This document shows, in pieces, positions 2,989-63,412 of a stretch of DNA of 64,000 nt. Position 1 is the first letter of the stretch, and the number at the start of each line of letters is the position of its first letter. The position numbers and the translations under genes were made by a program. Source of the DNA: a bacterium (lineage in GTDB: Bacteria; Myxococcota_A; UBA9160; UBA4427); the NCBI GenBank assembly GCA_024742285.1, contig JANSYR010000008.1:62001-126000 (forward strand), read 5' to 3'. A model generated the notes under the pieces. It had not been told where the DNA came from. It made no database searches and saw nothing but the letters and a program-made list of their open reading frames with translations.

Positions 2989-3102
2989 GGGATGCTCCTC
3001 GCTCGGGGAGACTCCATGGTTCCAGGGTGGCGAGGGGCTGTAAAGACGGGGCGAGAGCGGGTCTGGCGGCCGGAATCGGGCGTTTTCCGCCGGTCCCCGG
3101 GA

Positions 3103-4104
3103 TCAGCGGACGAGCCGCTGGTGGCCGAGGTGGACCTCGATCCCGGGATGGCGTGCCGCGAGATCGCGCAGCCAGGCCAGACTCCTGGCGTTCGCCGCGT
3201 GGTCGGCGGTGAACGAGCCGGGCTCGACGCCGTTCGCCCAGCCCCAGGCGGTGTGACAGGTATCGCCGACGAGGAGCTTTGGTCCTTCCGGCGTGCGCGC
3301 GAGGAAGGCCGTCGATCCCGGCGTGTGCCCCGGCGAGTGGATCGCGAAGAGCGAGCCGTCACCGAAGACGTCGAGGATCGACCGAGCGTCGTCGCCGGAA
3401 GGCGGCTCGAAGTCGAGCTCCTGGAGTGCCGCGTCCCGCGCGATCAGGCGGTCGAGGGTGCCGCGGGTGAACAGGTTGAGGAACGCCCGGCCGCGCGTCT
3501 CCCCCCGCCCGACGAAGACCGGAACGCTCTCGGGCACGTCGGGCAGCCCCATCACGTGGTCCATGTGGATGTGCGTGAGCAGCACGCCGGCCGGCTCGCG
3601 CGACTGCGTTTCGAGCCACTCCGCCGTCGAGACGTGCACGTCGAGGGCGTCGGTCCCCATCACCGCGTCGACCAGCGCGCTCACCTGAGGCGCGCGGCCT
3701 TCCTGTCGGAAGACCTCGGCGACCCCCGAGTCGACGAGCCAGGTGCCCTGCGTCGGGTGGCGCAGCACGTAGAGGAAGATCTCGATCGGCTCGGGACCCG
3801 ACTCGACGCCCTGTCGCCGGGTCTCGGGATGGTCGAGGTTGATCAGCCCGCTCCGGTCGACGACCCAGTCCGCGGCCACGATCCGCTCGAAGGTGATCGG
3901 GCCCGGCTCGTCGAGGTCGACCGTGAGTGCGTCGACGGAGGCCGCTCGGCCGAGATCGGAGCGCTCGGTCGGCTGACTGCTGGCGGTGCAGCCGGTCTGG
4001 AGCCCGGTCGCCAGCAGCGCCGCCAGCCACAGGGCCGCGGGGACCCAGGTCAGGGCGGTCGCGCCATCGCAGGGGCGGTCCGTCGGTCGGGGAATCCGGA
4101 TCAT
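3103..4104 (-). CDS. Exported MBL-fold hydrolase, putative lipoprotein
   Basis: A 333-residue metallo-beta-lactamase-fold protein. The N-terminus has a positively charged stretch, a hydrophobic segment, and a lipobox-like LQTGC near residues 35-39, suggesting export and lipid anchoring. The HIHMDH motif near residue 178 and later SPGHTPGS and GDTCH are the zinc ligands of the N-acyl homoserine lactonase/glyoxalase II-like group. Such enzymes hydrolyse lactones, esters or thioesters. The gene is divergent from the LysR gene at 4195, across about 90 bases, and may be its target. Confidence 0.8.
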   Translation of the reverse strand: MIRIPRPTDRPCDGATALTWVPAALWLAALLATGLQTGCTASSQPTERSDLGRAASVDALTVDLDEPGPITFERIVAADWVVDRSGLINLDHPETRRQGVESGPEPIEIFLYVLRHPTQGTWLVDSGVAEVFRQEGRAPQVSALVDAVMGTDALDVHVSTAEWLETQSREPAGVLLTHIHMDHVMGLPDVPESVPVFVGRGETRGRAFLNLFTRGTLDRLIARDAALQELDFEPPSGDDARSILDVFGDGSLFAIHSPGHTPGSTAFLARTPEGPKLLVGDTCHTAWGWANGVEPGSFTADHAANARSLAWLRDLAARHPGIEVHLGHQRLVR

Positions 4105-28042: not shown

Positions 28043-28119
28043 GCGCCGGTAGCTCAGCTGGATAGAGCATCAGGCTTCGAACCTGAGGGTCGGGGGTTCG
28101 AATCCCTCCCGGCGTACCA
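28043..28119 (+). tRNA. tRNA-Arg(UCG)
   Basis: A full cloverleaf can be drawn: acceptor stem 28043-28049 with 28109-28115 (first pair G-U), D stem GCTC/GAGC, anticodon stem TCAGG/CCTGA with loop CTTCGAA (anticodon TCG at 28077-28079, reading CGA codons), five-base variable region, T stem GGGGG/CCCTC with loop TTCGAAT, discriminator A, and encoded CCA at 28117-28119. The integrase gene of the adjoining ICE ends inside it on the other strand, so it is the insertion target. The tRNA appears intact. Confidence 0.97.
28054..28119. other. Probable left attachment site (attL) inside tRNA-Arg
   Basis: Integrases of this type insert into the 3' part of tRNA genes. Here the last ~20 codons of the integrase (ending RDSNPRPSGSKPDALSS) are the complement of the tRNA sequence. 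The core crossover is therefore somewhere within the anticodon-to-CCA part. No second copy of the tRNA 3' end is visible in the window, so the right end lies beyond 64,000. Confidence 0.6.
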
Positions 28120-29346
28120 TAAATTCCCTTTGAAATCGCCAAGTTCCGTTAGGTCACCTTCATCGTCTGAAACGGTGTTTTCGTCCATTGTGACCAAATT
28201 GTGACCAACTGTGACCATCGTGAGCCCGTCGAGTGCGTCGACGACGCCGTGCTCTTCGGGGTCCGGCAGCAAATGGCCATAGGTGTCGCACGTGATTTGG
28301 ATGCTCGAGTGCCCGAGCCAACGTGAGACCTTGAAGATGGGCACGCCGGCCAGGAGCAGGTCCGTTGCGAACGTGTGCCGCAGGTCGTGAAACGGCTTGG
28401 GGTGACCTTCGATCCCGGCACTCTTCACGATGCGCTTGAAGCGGTCTCCGAAGCGCCGGTCGTCCTGGACGGACGCCGTCTTTCGAACGGACGGGAAGAG
28501 CCATTCGCCTCGGTCCCGCTTCGCGTTGAAGACGATCTGGTCCTGAAGAACCGAGGCGAGCTCGGTCGATAGCGGAAGGGTTCGCCGCGACTTCTCGGTC
28601 TTCGGGTTATCCACCTTTCCGTCGATGATGCGGCGCCGAACGTGGAGATACCGGTCGACGAGGTCGACATCGTCCGGCCTCAACCCGAGGACCTCGGAGC
28701 GCCGGAGCCCGGCGCGCAGTCCCAGGAGGGCGCCAGCGTAAATCCAGCGGTCTTTCTTCTTCGCCGCCTTCAGGAGCTTGTCTCTCTCCTCGATCGTGTA
28801 GGGCTGCGCGCCACTCCCCTCGGCTGGAAGCTCATCCGTTCGCAGACCTGCCGCCTTCAGGAGCTGCGCCTTGTTGGCGAACGGATTCTTGCTCAGGATG
28901 CCCTGAACACTGACGGCATCCTCGAAGGCGCTCTGAAGAGCTCCGACAAGATTCGCGACGGTCTTCCTCGACCGCCTCCCCTCTTCGCCGTCAATCAAAT
29001 GGCGGACAATCGCAAGGGCGTCGGAACGGGAGATTTCGGCGAGGAGCTTCGAGCCAATCAGAGGCTTCACCTCGCGAACGGCCTGCGCGTAGGTGAGGTA
29101 CGAGCCGGGCCGAAGGCCACCTTCGACGCGAGCGAGCCAATCTTCCGTGTGCTTCGCGAATGTGAGCCCGCGCTGGGGCTCGCTCGGAAACGGCGTCTTC
29201 CCGAGAAGCATCCTGGCTTCGACTTGCTTCGCGAGTTTCTCGGCGAGCTCGCGGTTCGACGTGTCGGCGGATCTCCGGATACGCTGGCCATTCCATCGAA
29301 AGTCCAGCCACCAGACGTCTCCGCGTCGTCGCAGCCTTACCGCCAT
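28054..29346 (-). CDS. int: Tyrosine-type site-specific integrase
   Basis: A complete 430-residue phage-type integrase. An N-terminal arm-binding part and SAM-like core-binding region (about 60-160) precede the catalytic domain with Arg215 (GLRRSEVLGL), Lys249, HDLRH (His320, Arg323), His346 (WLGHSS) and the nucleophile Tyr356 (DTYGH). The C-terminal tail is encoded by the complement of the tRNA-Arg gene, as in many ICE integrases where recombination at the tRNA preserves both genes. It starts six bases after the stop of the excisionase-like gene. Confidence 0.95.
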   Translation of the reverse strand: MAVRLRRRGDVWWLDFRWNGQRIRRSADTSNRELAEKLAKQVEARMLLGKTPFPSEPQRGLTFAKHTEDWLARVEGGLRPGSYLTYAQAVREVKPLIGSKLLAEISRSDALAIVRHLIDGEEGRRSRKTVANLVGALQSAFEDAVSVQGILSKNPFANKAQLLKAAGLRTDELPAEGSGAQPYTIEERDKLLKAAKKKDRWIYAGALLGLRAGLRRSEVLGLRPDDVDLVDRYLHVRRRIIDGKVDNPKTEKSRRTLPLSTELASVLQDQIVFNAKRDRGEWLFPSVRKTASVQDDRRFGDRFKRIVKSAGIEGHPKPFHDLRHTFATDLLLAGVPIFKVSRWLGHSSIQITCDTYGHLLPDPEEHGVVDALDGLTMVTVGHNLVTMDENTVSDDEGDLTELGDFKGNLWYAGRDSNPRPSGSKPDALSS

Positions 29347-30987: not shown

Positions 30988-31395
30988 TCAGCCCACCCGC
31001 CGCCCTGGCCTCAATGGCCCCTGCCGAGCCAGAAAACGCCGACCCGCATTGGCAGTTGCCTCGAGGCGAGCCAATTCTGTTCGAAGCGCATTCTCCGCAA
31101 GCGAAGCCAGCGAAAGGCAATGCGGTGGTCCTGAGAGTGCGAAAACTGCATCTCGAATCGATTCCGCCAAGTCCGCCGGCAGATTGAACGGAACCTTCAC
31201 CTTCGAAGTCGCCTTCGCGTCCAAAACGGACTGAGATTCAAACTTCGGCTGATAAGCGGCCGCAGAGGTCGCGCCACGCGAATCTCGTCCGTTCTGAGAC
31301 GATTTCGACTCCTCAGACAGCAACCCGTCGCCCATCGCGTCTCGCAACAGGCTCGATCCGCCGGGAATTTTCGGAAGAGTGTTTCTAGGAGGCAT
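30988..31395 (-). CDS. Small putative centromere-binding partner of ParA
   Basis: A 135-residue protein whose ATG at 31395 lies inside the end of parA. The C-terminal half (KVPFNLPADLAESIRDAVFAL ... LASLAENALRTELARLE) resembles a ribbon-helix-helix fold, as in small ParB/ParG-type proteins. The N-terminal half is Ser/Gly-rich and likely flexible. Coupling to parA makes a partition role the best guess. A general RHH regulator is the alternative. Confidence 0.55.
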   Translation of the reverse strand: MPPRNTLPKIPGGSSLLRDAMGDGLLSEESKSSQNGRDSRGATSAAAYQPKFESQSVLDAKATSKVKVPFNLPADLAESIRDAVFALSGPPHCLSLASLAENALRTELARLEATANAGRRFLARQGPLRPGRRVG

Positions 31396-32206
31396 AGATT
31401 CGAACCTCCCTTCGCCCCTCCTCCTGAGCTGCAGCGATGCGGCTGAGTAACTCGGCACCCACCTCACGAAAATCGACCGCGCCGATACTAGCGGGCATGT
31501 ATTGGTTGACCGGCCGCTGAAACGCATGGGATTCGCCAACATGCGTGCTCTCTCGAATCACGCCATCGAGCACATCCACCCCGAATAGCTCGCGTAGCCA
31601 CGATTCGACTTGGCGATGCTGGAGTCGCGGCTGCATTCGGGAAACGACGATTCCGAGCAACTCCAAGTTTTCATTCAGTTGAGCCTGAACGTCCTGTGCC
31701 AGCCGGAGGATCGTCAGGATCGGGGTCCGACTCGCGGATTTCGGTTCAACCGGAATGAGCAGATAGTCCGACGCGACGAGTGCGTTCACCGTCACGAGGC
31801 CAAGACTCGGCGGGCAATCCAAGAGAACAAGGTCCCACTCCTCGGGAAGTTGCGACATCGACCGTGCGAGCAGCCGCTCGGCCGCGAGCTGCCCCGAAAC
31901 ACACCGGTCGAACGAGGCGAACCCGCTCCCGCACGGAACAACATCGAGCTCTACCGGACTCGTTCGAACAAGGTCGGCGAGCGGCCAGGCATGTGACACT
32001 GCCTGACAGAGCGCAGAGCCGTACGGCTCATCGTCTGGAAGCTCCCCCGGACTTCGAAGCCCGAGCCATTCCGTTGCAGTCGCTTGCTGGTCCAGGTCGA
32101 CGACCAGGACTCGGAGACCGCGTTCGCGAAGCGCGCCTGCGAGACAGACTGCGGCACCGCTCTTACCGACTCCCCCCTTGTGGTTGGCAATGGCTATGGT
32201 TTTCAT
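31385..32206 (-). CDS. parA: ParA-family partition ATPase
   Basis: A complete 273-residue MinD/ParA ATPase. The deviant Walker A motif HKGGVGKS lies at residues 9-16 and DLDQQATATEWLG is the switch region; LVLLDCPPSLG is Walker B. There is no N-terminal DNA-binding extension, as in small ParAs that rely on a partner. It heads the minus-strand run parA, partner, replication-like gene. It is divergent from the structured RNA at 32406. Confidence 0.93.
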   Translation of the reverse strand: MKTIAIANHKGGVGKSGAAVCLAGALRERGLRVLVVDLDQQATATEWLGLRSPGELPDDEPYGSALCQAVSHAWPLADLVRTSPVELDVVPCGSGFASFDRCVSGQLAAERLLARSMSQLPEEWDLVLLDCPPSLGLVTVNALVASDYLLIPVEPKSASRTPILTILRLAQDVQAQLNENLELLGIVVSRMQPRLQHRQVESWLRELFGVDVLDGVIRESTHVGESHAFQRPVNQYMPASIGAVDFREVGAELLSRIAAAQEEGRREVRIYAS

Positions 32207-32405
32207 TCTCCTCCCGTGTGATGACTACCGATTCGTCCGATGCTCCCATTGGGAGCGTTGCTTCCTCCCCTATCGCCTGAGGTCGCTGCATCCGTCAAGA
32301 AGAATATTTTCGGGACTGGCACGACCACTCTCATCGCCGCCATTCGGACCCTTTGAGTCCTACGGTTCCATTGAAGCCATCAATCCCATTGGTTCCAATC
32401 TCTCG
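32207..32405. promoter_or_regulatory. Spacer between parA and the structured RNA, with palindromes
   Basis: This 199-base spacer must carry the parA promoter (minus) and the promoter of the structured RNA (plus). It holds a perfect inverted repeat GCTCCC-ATT-GGGAGC at 32242-32256 and ATTGG-TT-CCAAT at 32388-32399. The 8-mer CCCATTGG occurs in both places. They are candidate operator or parS-type sites. No consensus sigma-70 promoter was found; TTGAAG near 32371 is a weak -35. Confidence 0.4.
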
Positions 32406-33667
32406 TGATGACTTCTACGACTCCGTACGGTAGAAGCACATCATCAGGCCTCCGGGCCTGTGGTCGTCAGGAAGTGGAGCGGGTAGGACATCCAACCTGC
32501 CGCACTGACCGGCCGAGATGGGGATACGTGCCCGGTAAAGCGACTACCAATCGCCTAAGGGTCCAGGGTTCACCTTCTGGAATGCGCATTTCCCTGTAGC
32601 GCTGAGTGCCTCGAGAGGGGCTCGCTCAGTGCGACGGAGGCTCGTCGGACTAATCCTTTCTACGTCTCGTAGAGAACTAATCCCGGCGTTCTATCCGATG
32701 ACCGAAGCCACGGACGGCATCGAAGAAGGGCGACGGAGGAAAACCGTCGGTCGGGATGCGTGAATATCACGCGAAACGGCCGACGGCCGCATACATTCGA
32801 AGTGGGTACCGCGCTCGTGCAATGCGAGCGCCCAGACCTGCCCAGGGGGTTCGGGCTTGGCCGTCATGGCCGAGTTCGCTCAACCTGGCTCGCGCAGGGA
32901 GCCCCGATCGTGGTGACACGACGGGCCGAGTCCGAAACCGGGACTCGGGTATCGGCCTAAACCGCCGAACGTGAAGAGCTCAACTGTGAAAGGCGTAACC
33001 GGTCGTGCGGGAGTGCTTGCGAGGAAATTTTCGAGAAGACGGTGCCGAACCGCGAAAAACTCCGCTGAGTGGGTAAGGGGGCCCTTCTGGCTTCGTCCCC
33101 CAGAAATCTCGAGGTGTAACGCCTCGAGGAAACTGCGGCTTGCTGGGAAGCGAGCGCGTATCAGCGTAGGACCGCCCGTAGTAGCCGGGCTGAGCGACGT
33201 GATCTCGAAATTGACGATGTATGCGAATCCGGGAAGCGGTCGAGGAGCCGGTGTGGTGACCGGTGCCTGGCAAGGTAGCCAGGTGTTTCAAACCCTCGAG
33301 CGTGGGAGCGGGTCCTGAGTAGCAGATACCGAGAGGTGCACGAGAGCGCGGCAAGGCAGTCGCGCGCTCGTCCTCCGAGAACCGGGTGGTGCCGTTCTCG
33401 AAAAGAGGAGACGAAAGGGACGACAGGGCATTCAGCCCATCTCGGTCCGGTCCGGAGGCCCCCAAAAACGGGGACTTCCGCATCCGGAAGGGAGTGAACG
33501 CGGCCAGATGGGACGGGCTCCGGGAGGAGCCTGCCCCACCTGGCGGTGGAATGACGGCAGACAGGATAGGTGCGCCCAATTTCTGGGATCACCGATTCGG
33601 CTGCCGCCTCCCGATACGATCGGTGGGTTGGGGTGAGGGCACATTGCTAGGCGATGCGCCCTGCCCC
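32406..33667 (+). ncRNA. Candidate giant structured non-coding RNA (about 1.26 kb)
   Basis: No convincing protein gene exists here, but the plus strand folds by eye into a chain of stable hairpins. Examples: 32406-32446; 32446-32459 with a UCCG loop; 32462-32510; 32599-32632 (8+5 bp, GAGA loop); 32659-32673; 32731-32749; 32811-32831; 32856-32874; 32901-32926 (GUGA loop); 32926-32948 (8 bp); 33108-33128; 33138-33155. A three-way junction at 33240-33299 encloses two 6-bp hairpins. Further stems are 33341-33370 (9 of 10 pairs), 33376-33400, 33475-33490, 33515-33532 (GGGA loop), 33590-33625 and 33630-33667. GNRA and UNCG loops occur only in plus-strand sense, which sets the direction. Size and complexity recall GOLLD, ROOL and OLE RNAs, but I cannot match it to any of them. 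It lies between parA and a NYN nuclease gene inside the ICE. The ends are approximate. Confidence 0.72.
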
Positions 33668-33808
33668 TTCTCGCCATTCGCGTGACGGTTGAAGTAGCGG
33701 ACGAAGTCTGTAACGTGCGGTTTTGATGGGTCTTTGTTTCGAAGACTTGTCGGAAGGATTTGTGCTTTGGTGGATTGTGCCGTGAACAATCCCCACTCTT
33801 CATGGGTG

Positions 33809-34447
33809 TCATGCGCGGGAATTCCAATCGGCGGGCTTCCGAATGCGTCGGCCACGGGCGTCGATGACGACGTCTGGGAACTGAGCGTGTTTGAGAACCT
33901 GGAGCGGCAGAAGTCGGGCCCGGTGTGCGGCGCCTCTCAGTTCGACCGCCGCGCCCCGGTCTGGATGGCGCGCCGGCACATAGACGACGATTTCTTTCTC
34001 GGGAAACCGTTTCCGAATGAGCGCGAGCGCCGGCACCAGGTCCGAATCCCCGCTCACCAGAATCAGCCGATCACATTCATCCTGATAGGCGTCATCGACC
34101 ATCGTGATGCCGATCGTCACGTCCGTTCGCTTCTCTTCGGGCCATGCGAACCGCCTGGGCCCTGCCATCGAGCACCCCGCGACCCGACATCGAACCCGCC
34201 GCGTCTTGAACCGGCCAAGCGTCACTTCAACGAGTGGTGTGGTCTCGAGCGCTCGAAGATGCGTCCTCTGAGCAATCCGCTCGTGCCCCATCATGAGTGC
34301 GGAGAAAAAGCGGACCCTGCGCAGGTCATCATGCGGCAGGAGAAGGCGAAACAACCGCTCTAGGTCGAGCCATGCCTCAGACGTGCCTCGCAGGGCTCCA
34401 TAGAAGAGATTGAATCCATCGACGTAGACAATTGTGCGGTTCTTCAA
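33809..34447 (-). CDS. NYN-domain (PIN-like) putative ribonuclease
   Basis: A LabA/NYN-type nuclease of about 212 residues. The catalytic acidic residues appear as IVYVDGFNLFYG (start), KRTDVTIGITMV (middle) and LVSGDSDLVPAL. These bind Mg2+ in PIN-like RNases. I prefer a TTG near 34447 that follows GGAGGG and puts the first strand at the N-terminus, as in other family members; a longer frame opens at 34579. It is transcribed toward the structured RNA, ending about 140 bases from it. Its substrate is unknown. Confidence 0.82.
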   Translation of the reverse strand: MKNRTIVYVDGFNLFYGALRGTSEAWLDLERLFRLLLPHDDLRRVRFFSALMMGHERIAQRTHLRALETTPLVEVTLGRFKTRRVRCRVAGCSMAGPRRFAWPEEKRTDVTIGITMVDDAYQDECDRLILVSGDSDLVPALALIRKRFPEKEIVVYVPARHPDRGAAVELRGAAHRARLLPLQVLKHAQFPDVVIDARGRRIRKPADWNSRA

Positions 34448-34771
34448 GGCCCTCCGAATGTCAGTTCCAGCGACGAATACAAGAAAGGCAGCCCTATAGG
34501 CTGCCCAAACCGGCCTGCCCAGCCGGGGAGTCGTGTTAGGTCCATTATTGTTCGGAATGGTAGAGATTGTCGAGGACAATCACGAATTCATGACTTGGTC
34601 AGCCGCGAAGCACCGCAACCCTCATGATATCAGCAACGGTATACCGTGAAGCCAGCCAGCAGGCGGCAGCCATGGCGAATGCGAAGGGGAGAGAAAAAAT
34701 TGCGTCACTCTGCGGCGCGCACCGCATAACATTTAGTGCAGGGAGATAGAGGGGGATGGAAGGAGACGACA
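34448..34771. promoter_or_regulatory. Divergent spacer between NYN nuclease and hypothetical gene
   Basis: About 320 bases, AT-rich in places, that separate the NYN gene (minus) from the gene at 34772 (plus). If the NYN protein starts at 34579, the spacer shrinks accordingly. A perfect palindrome CGGTATACCG lies at about 34638-34647. AAGGAG precedes the plus-strand start. No gene seen. Confidence 0.35.
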
Positions 34772-35554
34772 ATGTACCGTTGTCAAACGACCACCCTCGA
34801 AGGATTTGTGCAGCAGCTCGTCTGCTACATCGCGAGTGGCTACCGCTATTTCGTGGTGGGGCAAATCCCAGAACACAAAGACCCCCAACGGGTCGACCAG
34901 AACGTCATCGAGAAGTACGGCATCGCGCTGTCCAAATACCAGCGTGCGCGCCGTAAGCAGAAGGGCGAGGCCAGCGTCCAGTACCTGCGCTTTCAGAACT
35001 TCTTCGTGCTGATTGCGACGCCACCGGTCGGCGCTCACGAGTTTTACAGCGCCGAAGCCAATGCGATTCGGGACATTCGAAAGCAGCCCATTCGCTGCGC
35101 CGGCTACTCCATCAGTTGTCGGCAGGACGGCTCCGCGGCCCGCGAAGGCATTCAGCGCTGGCGGGCACACGTCCGCATCGATAGGGAGCCGTTTCTTGAG
35201 CTCAAGGCAGCGCTCCTCGAAGCTTCGACGCGGAGAAGTCGCCGCGAGCTCGAATTGACGCTCCGAGAAATTCCCTATGAACCCTATGCGCCTATTCGGC
35301 GACAGCTACTGGAAATCCTTCGCGCCATGAACATTCGACGTGATGGCGCTGACCTTCAGCCGCTCCGGTCTCGCTGCCTCCGGTTCCGACGAGTCCCCGT
35401 ACTTCCATTCGGTTCGGACGAGTCGGGGCGAAGCCAACCGGCGATCCTCGCGGCTATCGCATTGCTCGGTCTGCTCGTCTTCGCCTGGCAGGTCGAGGAA
35501 GCACGGTTCGTGATGGCCGTTCTCGTGGTGTACCTGCTGCTCCGCGAGCCATGA
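34772..35554 (+). CDS. ICE protein of unknown function with C-terminal membrane segments
   Basis: A 260-residue protein from an ATG preceded by AAGGAG at seven bases; an upstream in-frame start at 34736 lacks such a site. The body is rich in Arg, Lys, Tyr and Phe (YRCQTTTLEGFVQQL, GYRYFVVGQIPEHKDP, KYGIALSKYQRARRK), suggesting a nucleic-acid-binding fold. The last 45 residues form one or two hydrophobic segments. I recall similar proteins in other mobile elements but cannot name the family. Confidence 0.6.
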   Translation: MYRCQTTTLEGFVQQLVCYIASGYRYFVVGQIPEHKDPQRVDQNVIEKYGIALSKYQRARRKQKGEASVQYLRFQNFFVLIATPPVGAHEFYSAEANAIRDIRKQPIRCAGYSISCRQDGSAAREGIQRWRAHVRIDREPFLELKAALLEASTRRSRRELELTLREIPYEPYAPIRRQLLEILRAMNIRRDGADLQPLRSRCLRFRRVPVLPFGSDESGRSQPAILAAIALLGLLVFAWQVEEARFVMAVLVVYLLLREP

Positions 35555-61571: not shown

Positions 61572-63412
61572 CTGCTCGGCGGGCCGAGAACGGTGCCGTC
61601 GCCGGCCGAGGTCTCCCCGGCACGCTGCGAGAACGTCGGATCCTCGTAGTACCGGATCTTCGCTCCCAGGATTGGACGCAGGCCCGGCGCGAAAATCAAC
61701 GCCGCGTCGTCGCCGAGACGCATGATCTCGTCGGAAGTTAGAAGCGCACGCTGCGTCTCCTGCTCCGCCGCAATCACGTGCCCCAACCATGGCGACAGTC
61801 GACTTCCGGTGTAGGTCCTCGTCTCCTTGTGAACCGTCGTCTGCCCCGTCATCTCCGACAGCACCCGGGCCGTCTCGAGCTTGTTCGGCCGAAAGGCAAC
61901 CCGCACATCACAGTTCGCGGAGATGGCCTCATCGCGTCCATAGAGGGCACGGAGCTGTTCAAGGTCCTGAACCACGATGTAGGCCTTGATGCCGTATCCG
62001 GCGATGTAGCCGAGCGCATCATGAAGGAAGTGGAGCCGACCGAGCGCCGTGAACTCATCCAGCATGAGCAGAAGTCTTCTACGCCCGCCCTCCCCTTCAC
62101 GGACGGCTTCAAGTTTCTCCGTCAGACGGTGCAGCACCTGTTGCAGGAGCACTCGCATCAGCACCCGTGTTCGCCTCAGGTCAGCGGGCGCAATCGTTAG
62201 ATAGAGCGACGTCGGCGTCTCCGCGGCGACGAGGTCTGTGATCCGAAAATCGGATGCCTCCGTGCTCCGAGCCACGACCGGATCCGCGAATAGCCGAAGC
62301 GCTCGTCGCACCGTCGAAACGACGCTCGACCGCTCGTTCGGGCTCTTGTTCAGCAACGCCTGGGCCCCGGCCGAAACCGTCGGATGCGTTCTCGTAGGCT
62401 CACCCTTTGAGGGGGAACGCCACTTCCAGGCGCCGCTCGGGTCATGAGCCGTATCGATCATCTCGTTGCAAATCGTCTCGATCGGAACGCCCGGGAGCGA
62501 AACGAGATCGAGGCAAGCGCGGAGAGTGGCCTGCGGCTGCGAATAGAGAACGTGCAGAGTCAGAGACGTGAGGAAATCGGCGCCGGTCTCCGTCCAATGA
62601 ACGCCCGTGTCGTCGCTTCCGTCGCCGGTATCCATGATGATCGCGGCGACGTTCTGGGCGTCCCGAACCTCGAGCGGGCCTAGCCGCACCTCTTCGAGCG
62701 GGTTGTACCGGGCCCAATCGGGTCCCTCGTTTCCCTCGGGCGCCGTCGGGTCGAATCGCAGCACCCGGTGGCCGAGCATCTCGCGTCGCCAAGCCGCGGT
62801 CTGCGCGTAGTTCTCGCCCTTCATGTCGTGAATGATCGCGCTCTCCACCCACCCTCCGAGCAAGGTCGGAAGGACGAGCCCGACGCCCTTTCCACTCCGC
62901 GTGGGAGCGAATGCAAGGCAATGGGAGGGCCCATCGTCGCGGAGGTAGAACGTGCGCGCTCCTTCACCCAATGCGCCCACATAGACGCCGGAGTCGTGGC
63001 CGAGAAGCCCGGCCTCCTCGATCTCCGCCTTCGTCGCGAAGCGGGCGGAACCATAGAGATCGCTTCGCCCGCCAATCTGCCGCGCGCGCCATACCGAGAA
63101 CCCAATGGCCCCGAGGATCGCAAGATGGGAAGGAATCGCGATCGCCCAGTGCCCCACTTCCCAGATGTGTGCCGTCTCAGCCACATCGCGAAAGCGAATT
63201 GCCCACACGAAGTAGCCCCAAGGCGGGTAGACGAGCCCTATCCACGGTGGGCCAAGTGCCTCGGCGAACCCAAGGCGCCATGCAGCCCACTGGGTCGTCG
63301 CCCAACAAGACAGGACGACGATCGCAACCGACATGGATACAGCGCCCAGTGACACGCCGGCCGCACGATTGCGCCCCCCTTTCGGAAGGTGATAGATGGC
63401 GCCACTCGTCAC
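61568..63412 (-). CDS. virD4: VirD4/TraG-type conjugative coupling protein
   Basis: A 614-residue coupling protein. The GTG at 63412 overlaps the upstream stop (GTGA) and leaves three or four N-terminal hydrophobic segments (about residues 20-110). Walker A PTRSGKG lies at 170-176 and Walker B LLLMLDEFTALG near 445. It delivers the relaxase-DNA complex to the secretion channel. It is encoded with the probable relaxase, apart from the trb operon, and separated from it by the SorC-like gene. Confidence 0.93.
   Translation of the reverse strand: MTSGAIYHLPKGGRNRAAGVSLGAVSMSVAIVVLSCWATTQWAAWRLGFAEALGPPWIGLVYPPWGYFVWAIRFRDVAETAHIWEVGHWAIAIPSHLAILGAIGFSVWRARQIGGRSDLYGSARFATKAEIEEAGLLGHDSGVYVGALGEGARTFYLRDDGPSHCLAFAPTRSGKGVGLVLPTLLGGWVESAIIHDMKGENYAQTAAWRREMLGHRVLRFDPTAPEGNEGPDWARYNPLEEVRLGPLEVRDAQNVAAIIMDTGDGSDDTGVHWTETGADFLTSLTLHVLYSQPQATLRACLDLVSLPGVPIETICNEMIDTAHDPSGAWKWRSPSKGEPTRTHPTVSAGAQALLNKSPNERSSVVSTVRRALRLFADPVVARSTEASDFRITDLVAAETPTSLYLTIAPADLRRTRVLMRVLLQQVLHRLTEKLEAVREGEGGRRRLLLMLDEFTALGRLHFLHDALGYIAGYGIKAYIVVQDLEQLRALYGRDEAISANCDVRVAFRPNKLETARVLSEMTGQTTVHKETRTYTGSRLSPWLGHVIAAEQETQRALLTSDEIMRLGDDAALIFAPGLRPILGAKIRYYEDPTFSQRAGETSAGDGTVLGPPSS

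Follow-up and report, generated by a model that had tools for sequence, protein, structure and literature searches.

A probable circularly permuted group II ribozyme and its AcpG partner protein in an integrative and conjugative element of a Myxococcota_A bacterium

The 64,000-nt stretch of DNA analyzed here (the window; positions 62,001 to 126,000 of contig JANSYR010000008.1, assembly GCA_024742285.1, from a member of Myxococcota_A) contains, at window positions 32406 to 33667, a region with the hallmarks of a large structured RNA. The explanation that best fits the data, and that is very likely correct, reads this RNA as a circularly permuted (CP) group II ribozyme that is carried, together with the nearby partner gene acpG, by integrative and conjugative elements (ICEs) and plasmids; the predicted fold of the acpG product is that of a reduced maturase. 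The CP group II ribozymes (“T-large”) and their partner gene acpG have been described by Roth et al. in 2021 (PMC8637638). The RNA in the window is predicted to be an additional member of this rare known class, with a CGC triad and an ICE setting as its new features. In an earlier note, the same interval was read as a giant structured RNA, perhaps of an undescribed class and similar to GOLLD, ROOL, or OLE. The RNA is indeed large, structured, and encoded on the plus strand, but it belongs with the CP group II ribozymes rather than with any of those classes.

The domain order proposed for this RNA is P1/P2-D5-D6-(3' splice site, 28-nt linker, 5' splice site)-D1-D2-D3-D4, where D stands for domain. 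Thus, D5 and D6 are found near the 5' end of the RNA, ahead of D1, and the canonical D1-to-D6 order is not followed. The individual parts are established by homology and covariation, except for D3/D4 and P1, which are named provisionally. The features are as follows, with the supporting evidence in parentheses (CM, covariance model; HMM, hidden Markov model; RT, reverse transcriptase).

32406-32470, plus strand: 5' hairpins of a putative P1-like region, including a UCCG-capped hairpin at 32445-32460
32563-32580, plus strand: P2 hairpin, whose loop UCACC (32570-32574) is predicted to pair with the D2 loop GGUGA (covariation)
32599-32632, plus strand: D5, the catalytic hairpin (strict D5 scan, covariation, CM R1)
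32635-32699, plus strand: D6, ending in UUCUAUCCGAU (32689-32699), with the branch-point A at 32693 (alignment, covariation, CM R1)
After 32699, plus strand: predicted 3' splice site (motif)
32700-32727, plus strand: linker between the reversed splice sites, a predicted 28-nt RNA circle, GACCGAAGCCACGGACGGCATCGAAGAA (splice-motif rule)
32728-32734, plus strand: predicted 5' splice site and start of D1, GGGCGAC (GGGCGA is invariant in all 13 aligned loci)
32889-33023, plus strand: multibranched D1 core with the conserved GAAGAGCUCAAC at 32973-32984 (42 pairs, of which 31 covary; CM R2)
33077-33101, plus strand: hairpin with a 15-nt loop, a tentative candidate for exon-binding site 1 (EBS1) (conserved position)
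33240-33299, plus strand: three-way D2, whose loop GGUGA (33255-33259) is predicted to pair with P2 (covariation)
33303-33433, plus strand: putative J2/3-D3 region with UGGGAGCGGG, a GCAAGGCAGU hairpin, and GACGAAAGG...GACAGGGCAUU (conserved in 12 loci)
33434-33667, plus strand: 3' hairpins, putatively D4-like (strong folding signal)
33772-33792, plus strand: conserved hairpin GGATTGTGCC..AACAATCC (upstream of acpG in many loci)
34772-35554, plus strand: acpG, with a predicted RT-palm/thumb (maturase-like) fold that has lost the YADD motif (HMM, predicted structure, profiles)

The D5 sequence, GCGCUGAGU GCCUC GAGA GGGGC UC GCUCAGUGC, is exactly 34 nt long (9 + 5 bp) and has a CGC triad with a G.U wobble, five pairs up to the 2-nt bulge UC, and a GAGA tetraloop. 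In D6, the bulged branch-point A32693 is invariant in all 12 loci. The sequence GGGCGACG starts at 32728, directly after the 28-nt linker, and the same splice-site motifs, UUCKAYYCNAU followed by GGGCGA, frame the linker in the other full-length relatives. When applied to the experimentally studied plasmid pPNAP05 of P. naphthalenivorans, this rule delimits 32 nt (L018, positions 213 to 244), reproducing the published 32-nt circle (PMC8637638) and thereby supporting the assignment of the linker.

Covariation was assessed for D5-D6 (12 aligned loci) and for the D1 core, with slid pairings as controls. In the D5-D6 model, pairing amounts to 98.3% (99.4% for D5 alone), and both partners have changed in 16 of 24 pairs; the covariation score is 0.679, against at most 0.145 for the slid controls, in which pairing was 27 to 54%. 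For the D1 core, pairing amounts to 94.0%, both partners have changed in 31 of 42 pairs, and the score is 0.705, against at most 0.125 for the controls, in which pairing was 32 to 41%. The loops of P2 and D2 are complementary, and in 8 loci their sequences vary while complementarity is kept (mean run of 6.75, compared to 4.14 for mismatched loci; permutation P = 5e-5); this loop-loop pseudoknot is unique to the CP class (PMC8637638). The changes in D5-D6 and the D1 core are compensatory, of the kind that the earlier note had suggested looking for. Two CMs were built with the window left out, R1 for D5-D6 (from 11 relatives) and R2 for the D1 core. They recovered the window RNA with 97.2 bits (E = 1.2e-21) and 88 bits (E = 7e-20), respectively, which is among the highest scores of the set. 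In a scan of 379 genomes of the phylum with R1, only the window exceeded 48 bits; the remaining matches, at 31 to 47 bits and often several per genome, resemble canonical introns. CM R2 either missed the proteobacterial CP members or matched them at an E value of only 0.76.

The relatives used in these alignments were reached through the partner gene. A blastn search with the RNA against plasmids, phages, and 61 + 80 related genomes revealed no homologue, and the one hit, in G055 (L003), proved to be a 38-base chance match inside a UbiB-type coding gene next to argG. Tracing the element by its ParA, NYN, or HTH_36 protein did not reach the RNA; acpG did lead there. In a tblastn search, the AcpG of the window identified plasmid-borne relatives in a planctomycete, Leptolyngbya, Calothrix, and Planococcus, each with an unannotated 1.3- to 1.7-kb gap directly upstream of the acpG homologue. 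In two of these gaps, Rfam matched a group II intron D5-D6 close to the 5' end, which is the wrong end for an ordinary intron and thus a mark of the CP group II ribozymes (PMC8637638). Scanning of contigs, for which a two-member AcpG alignment worked and a five-member one was too diverse, yielded with the AcpG of the window 18 loci, mostly from Planctomycetota but also from Acidobacteriota, one deltaproteobacterium, and Bdellovibrionales. Many of these loci carry a CP RNA upstream of acpG, with a D5 of exactly 34 nt and then GAAWAGCTCAAC, usually 300 to 450 nt further on. In three acpG loci (L023, L024, and L032), there was no CP RNA within the stretch inspected. Direct blastn of the window against the relatives matched L026 (66% over 277 nt, E = 1e-11) and L025 (87% over 61 nt, E = 6e-15). 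Relatives reside on plasmids, where they are often close to genes for replication, partition, or transfer.

Several of these loci show peculiarities of their own. The linkers of L025 (2679-2898, 220 nt), L030 (3210-3319, 110 nt), and L016 (3988-3999, 12 nt) are outside the published range of 15 to 86 nt (PMC8637638). The Calothrix plasmid (L015) has two CP group II copies (at 1633 and 3784) with near-identical D5 upstream of a single acpG. In L036, a group II intron with an RT gene (positions 3-1860; RT gene, 3-1751) directly abuts, at about 1860, the CP D1 sequence CATGAAAGGC, and in L037, a canonical D5-D6 (approximately 3041-3135) lies within the CP D5; these are possibly ordinary group II introns inside CP ribozymes, that is, twintrons. 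Shortly upstream of acpG, a hairpin of the form GGRUUGUGCC..AACAAUCC is found in the window and in L021, L026, L027, L029, L032, L033, L035, L013, and L015, and is thus kept even in L032, where no CP RNA was seen beside acpG. It could possibly be a terminator, an attenuator, or an AcpG site.

The plus strand of the interval is strongly structured. In 200-nt segments of the plus strand, z-scores relative to dinucleotide shuffles were −2.5 to −5.5 over much of 32601-33800 (background of 126 segments elsewhere: mean of −0.18, standard deviation of 1.03), the minus strand being clearly weaker except at the 3' end; the minimum free energy of 32400-33680 is −635 kcal/mol. All four tetraloop hairpins listed in the earlier note are present at the coordinates given there (GAGA at 32613-32616, GTGA at 32913-32916, GGGA at 33522-33525, and TCCG at 32451-32454); the GAGA loop is the D5 tetraloop, and the GTGA loop closes a D1 helix that covaries. 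What the note had noticed as a three-way junction at 33240-33299 is D2. The proposed pairing of 32837-32841 with 32894-32898 had to be corrected because positions 32894-32897 belong to a covariation-supported D1 helix, in which they pair with the CTGT that follows AGCTCAA. Segments 33437-33442 and 33506-33512, also proposed to pair, are complementary in sequence. The same note saw no plausible protein gene in the interval, and this holds: codon-position G+C is flat on both strands, adjoining genes are strongly phased, and the overlapping open reading frames (ORFs) are all of the chance type, with no intron ORF inside the RNA.

The second part of the finding concerns the acpG ORF, which spans 34736-35554 on the plus strand, with the most likely start at 34772. 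An HMM of 22 AcpG-like (window-type) proteins matches the divergent ORF next to the pPNAP05 RNA of the publication (E = 1e-12) and ORFs adjoining six other RNAs on proteobacterial plasmids; TTHC007 of Thermus plasmid pTT8 is a weak match (E = 0.0025). A profile-profile comparison (hhalign) gave 99%. Owing to these matches to ORFs beside published RNAs, the window ORF was assigned to AcpG, a protein for which no homology to any protein class had been found (PMC8637638). The AlphaFold model of the window AcpG (pLDDT of 87.5) gave weak Foldseek matches, with Prp8 and retron RTs in the lead. After realignment with VIA-align 2, group II intron RTs/maturases came first (8h2h_D, Z = 10.5 over 224 residues with a root mean square deviation of 4.9; next Z values, 9.7, 9.3, and 9.2), and all 50 of the 50 matches listed were RTs, Prp8, telomerases, or related polymerases. 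For a second model, that of the homologue from Bryobacterales (Acidobacteriota, L026; pLDDT of 92.7), Foldseek hits 1 to 6 were group II intron RTs (best E = 1.4e-3, probability of 0.98), which were again at the top by Z score (9.8, 9.4, and 9.3). The structural match covers palm and thumb, placing residues 1-208 of the AcpG model on RT residues ∼100-420. A viral-structure library gave no useful AcpG match. In a sequence-profile alignment to five intron-encoded proteins, the AcpG hairpin YLRFxxFFVLLAT (SVQYLRFQNFFVLIAT in the window, NLQYVRYKRSFVLLAT in L026) was placed on YVRYADDFVI, and GYSIS on FLGYEI, with a score of 28.1 compared to 15.0 ± 3.3 (maximum, 24.7) in 30 column shuffles. The catalytic aspartates of YADD are absent in all 22 AcpG members, so the protein can be maturase-like but not an active RT. 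The window AcpG also has a C-terminal hydrophobic two-helix tail (35424-35540), likely membrane helices, which its relatives lack; the protein may be membrane anchored.

Judged by these models and profiles, AcpG is probably a group II intron maturase in reduced form, catalytically dead and now serving as a dedicated partner of the CP ribozyme; its descent from group II maturases would be new if confirmed. The confidence in this reading is limited because there is no sequence-family match (Pfam, NCBIfam, PHROG, PADLOC, and PDB sequences gave none), the profile alignment is weak alone (probability of 5%), and the proteobacterial AcpG set by itself gave no such alignment with intron-encoded proteins; the modest structural scores (Z of ∼10, E of 1e-3) likewise weigh against it. 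It is conceivable, if on balance unlikely, that AcpG shares no more than a common alpha/beta (RRM/GGDEF-like) palm and functions, for instance, in plasmid replication or RNA binding: the Foldseek E values are just 1e-3 to 0.07, and GGDEF and RdRp palm proteins appear lower in the same lists. However, group II intron RTs lead three of the four PDB comparisons, above other palms, both palm and thumb are matched, and sequence profiles independently place matches at YADD and at the FLG motif after it. A comparable case is Prp8 of the spliceosome core, a maturase-derived, catalytically dead RT-like fold on a group II-type active site, which is listed for AcpG at a Z of ∼8. Unlike Prp8, AcpG is bacterial, has ∼200 to 260 amino acids, and is encoded beside a self-splicing-type RNA.

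With respect to the RNA, the following points count against its assignment to the CP class: the D5 triad is CGC, whereas AGC is stressed in PMC8637638; the candidate EBS1 (CUUCG, 33091-33095) matches the linker (CGAAG, 32721-32725) weakly, over 5 bp and two nucleotides off the site; and CM R1 seemingly also scores canonical group II introns at 30 to 64 bits. For the latter reason, low R1 matches are not diagnostic, but the 97 bits of the window are far above them. The segments that would hold the EBS1-IBS1 and epsilon-epsilon' contacts, D3, D4, and a pseudoknot of P1 with the 3' end are conserved, the contacts themselves being putative. The RNA further differs from the described ribozymes in its ICE location and in the NYN gene between RNA and acpG, and the relatives found here come from Planctomycetota, Acidobacteriota, and Cyanobacteriota, while the text of the original paper names Deinococcus-Thermus, Firmicutes, and Proteobacteria. 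It shares with them the domain order, D5/D6, the branch A, the reversed splice sites (NU/GGGCG), a linker within the published range, the P2-D2 pseudoknot, the lack of an internal ORF, and a nearby acpG, which in this class is frequent but not obligatory (PMC8637638). A group II intron of the canonical kind, whole or fragmented, or an inactive relic of a CP ribozyme that has decayed would account for the D5-D6 homology and for the RF00029 matches of some relatives, and canonical bacterial introns with their maturases (LtrA, GsI-IIC RT) do share the D5/D6 architecture and a palm-thumb to which the AcpG model fits. Compared with those introns, the domains are permuted, and AcpG is a separate gene product without the YADD aspartates. 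Such an origin of the RNA is very improbable, as all full-length relatives have D5-D6 ahead of D1, the RNA contains no intron ORF, and the window retains the examined pairs and splice motifs, with CM scores among the highest of the set. Least probable of all, to the point of being refuted by the domain-level homology to group II, is an undescribed giant ornate RNA that serves the ICE. GOLLD, ROOL, and OLE are likewise large and structured, the first two on mobile elements, and the size of the window RNA, its tRNA-linked mobile element, and the absence of an Rfam match would suit such a class, but its architecture differs, and the group II D5/D6, the branch A, the reversed splice motifs, the P2-D2 pseudoknot, and AcpG are all present. 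The Rfam comparison proposed in the earlier note gave no match at the gathering threshold or at E values up to 5, except for a chance Hammerhead_II at an E value of 3. This outcome is uninformative: Rfam 15 has no model of the CP class, and it gave no match to the CP RNA in plasmids carrying published-type members either.

For a CP group II ribozyme, the published biochemistry comprises branch formation at the bulged A, a released circle, and a T-shaped RNA (PMC8637638). By the same chemistry, A32693 would be the nucleophile in the attack on the 5' splice site (32728), and the 3' end thus freed would then attack the 3' splice site after 32699. The products would be the 28-nt circle (32700-32727) and a T-shaped 2'-5' branched RNA. 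AcpG, with its predicted RT palm devoid of catalytic aspartates and its thumb-like part, would bind the ribozyme and most likely act as a helper in its folding and splicing, without reverse transcription. The RNA-protein pair moves with ICEs and plasmids and probably serves the element that carries it, perhaps in maintenance or transfer. Since the reaction would release a circle, and one is predicted in all full-length relatives, the circle itself rather than the branched RNA might be the functional product, for example, as an antisense or sponge RNA. There is little to recommend this option, given that neither the sequence nor the length of the linker (12 to 220 nt) is conserved, and the original authors held the same view against a function of the circle (PMC8637638).

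The ribozyme is flanked on one side by a divergent ParA gene and on the other by a convergent NYN gene, in an element with the following landmarks.

28043-29346: left end of the ICE, with tRNA-Arg (28043-28119, plus strand) overlapped by a tyrosine integrase gene (28054-29346, minus strand)
31385-32206, minus strand: gene for a ParA-like ATPase, divergent from the ribozyme
33809-34579, minus strand: NYN-domain gene of the HEC-09 candidate defense family, between the ribozyme and acpG

The element also has genes for type I restriction-modification and for VirB/Trb type IV secretion (conjugation), as well as an E1-E2-JAB gene. The integrase at tRNA-Arg, together with ParA and the VirB/Trb genes, identifies it as an ICE, in agreement with the earlier note. 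A second copy of the tRNA 3' end (attR) was not found within the 64-kb window, and the right end of the ICE is outside it. The NYN gene is part of an island with the type I restriction-modification genes, a metallo-beta-lactamase-fold gene, and the E1-E2-JAB gene. Simple scans for promoters and terminators gave nothing. The absence of AcpG from 90 other genomes of the same class that were searched suggests that the ribozyme-acpG pair has been acquired horizontally.

To our knowledge, CP group II ribozymes belong to the handful of large natural ribozyme classes that have no known biological role. With the present case, the class now includes a member on an ICE from a lineage that has been little studied, and the 18 partner-gene loci from Planctomycetota, Acidobacteriota, and other groups, along with those on plasmids, supply covariation for D5, D6, D1, and P2-D2. 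The maturase-like fold predicted for AcpG is the first structural lead on the partner protein and the first hint at its role, and whether AcpG binds and activates the ribozyme becomes a testable question. If true, this would be a bacterial parallel to Prp8, an RT-derived protein retained purely as a splicing scaffold. It would also mean that an RT-derived splicing factor and a permuted ribozyme have lost retromobility together and have then been taken over by plasmids and ICEs.
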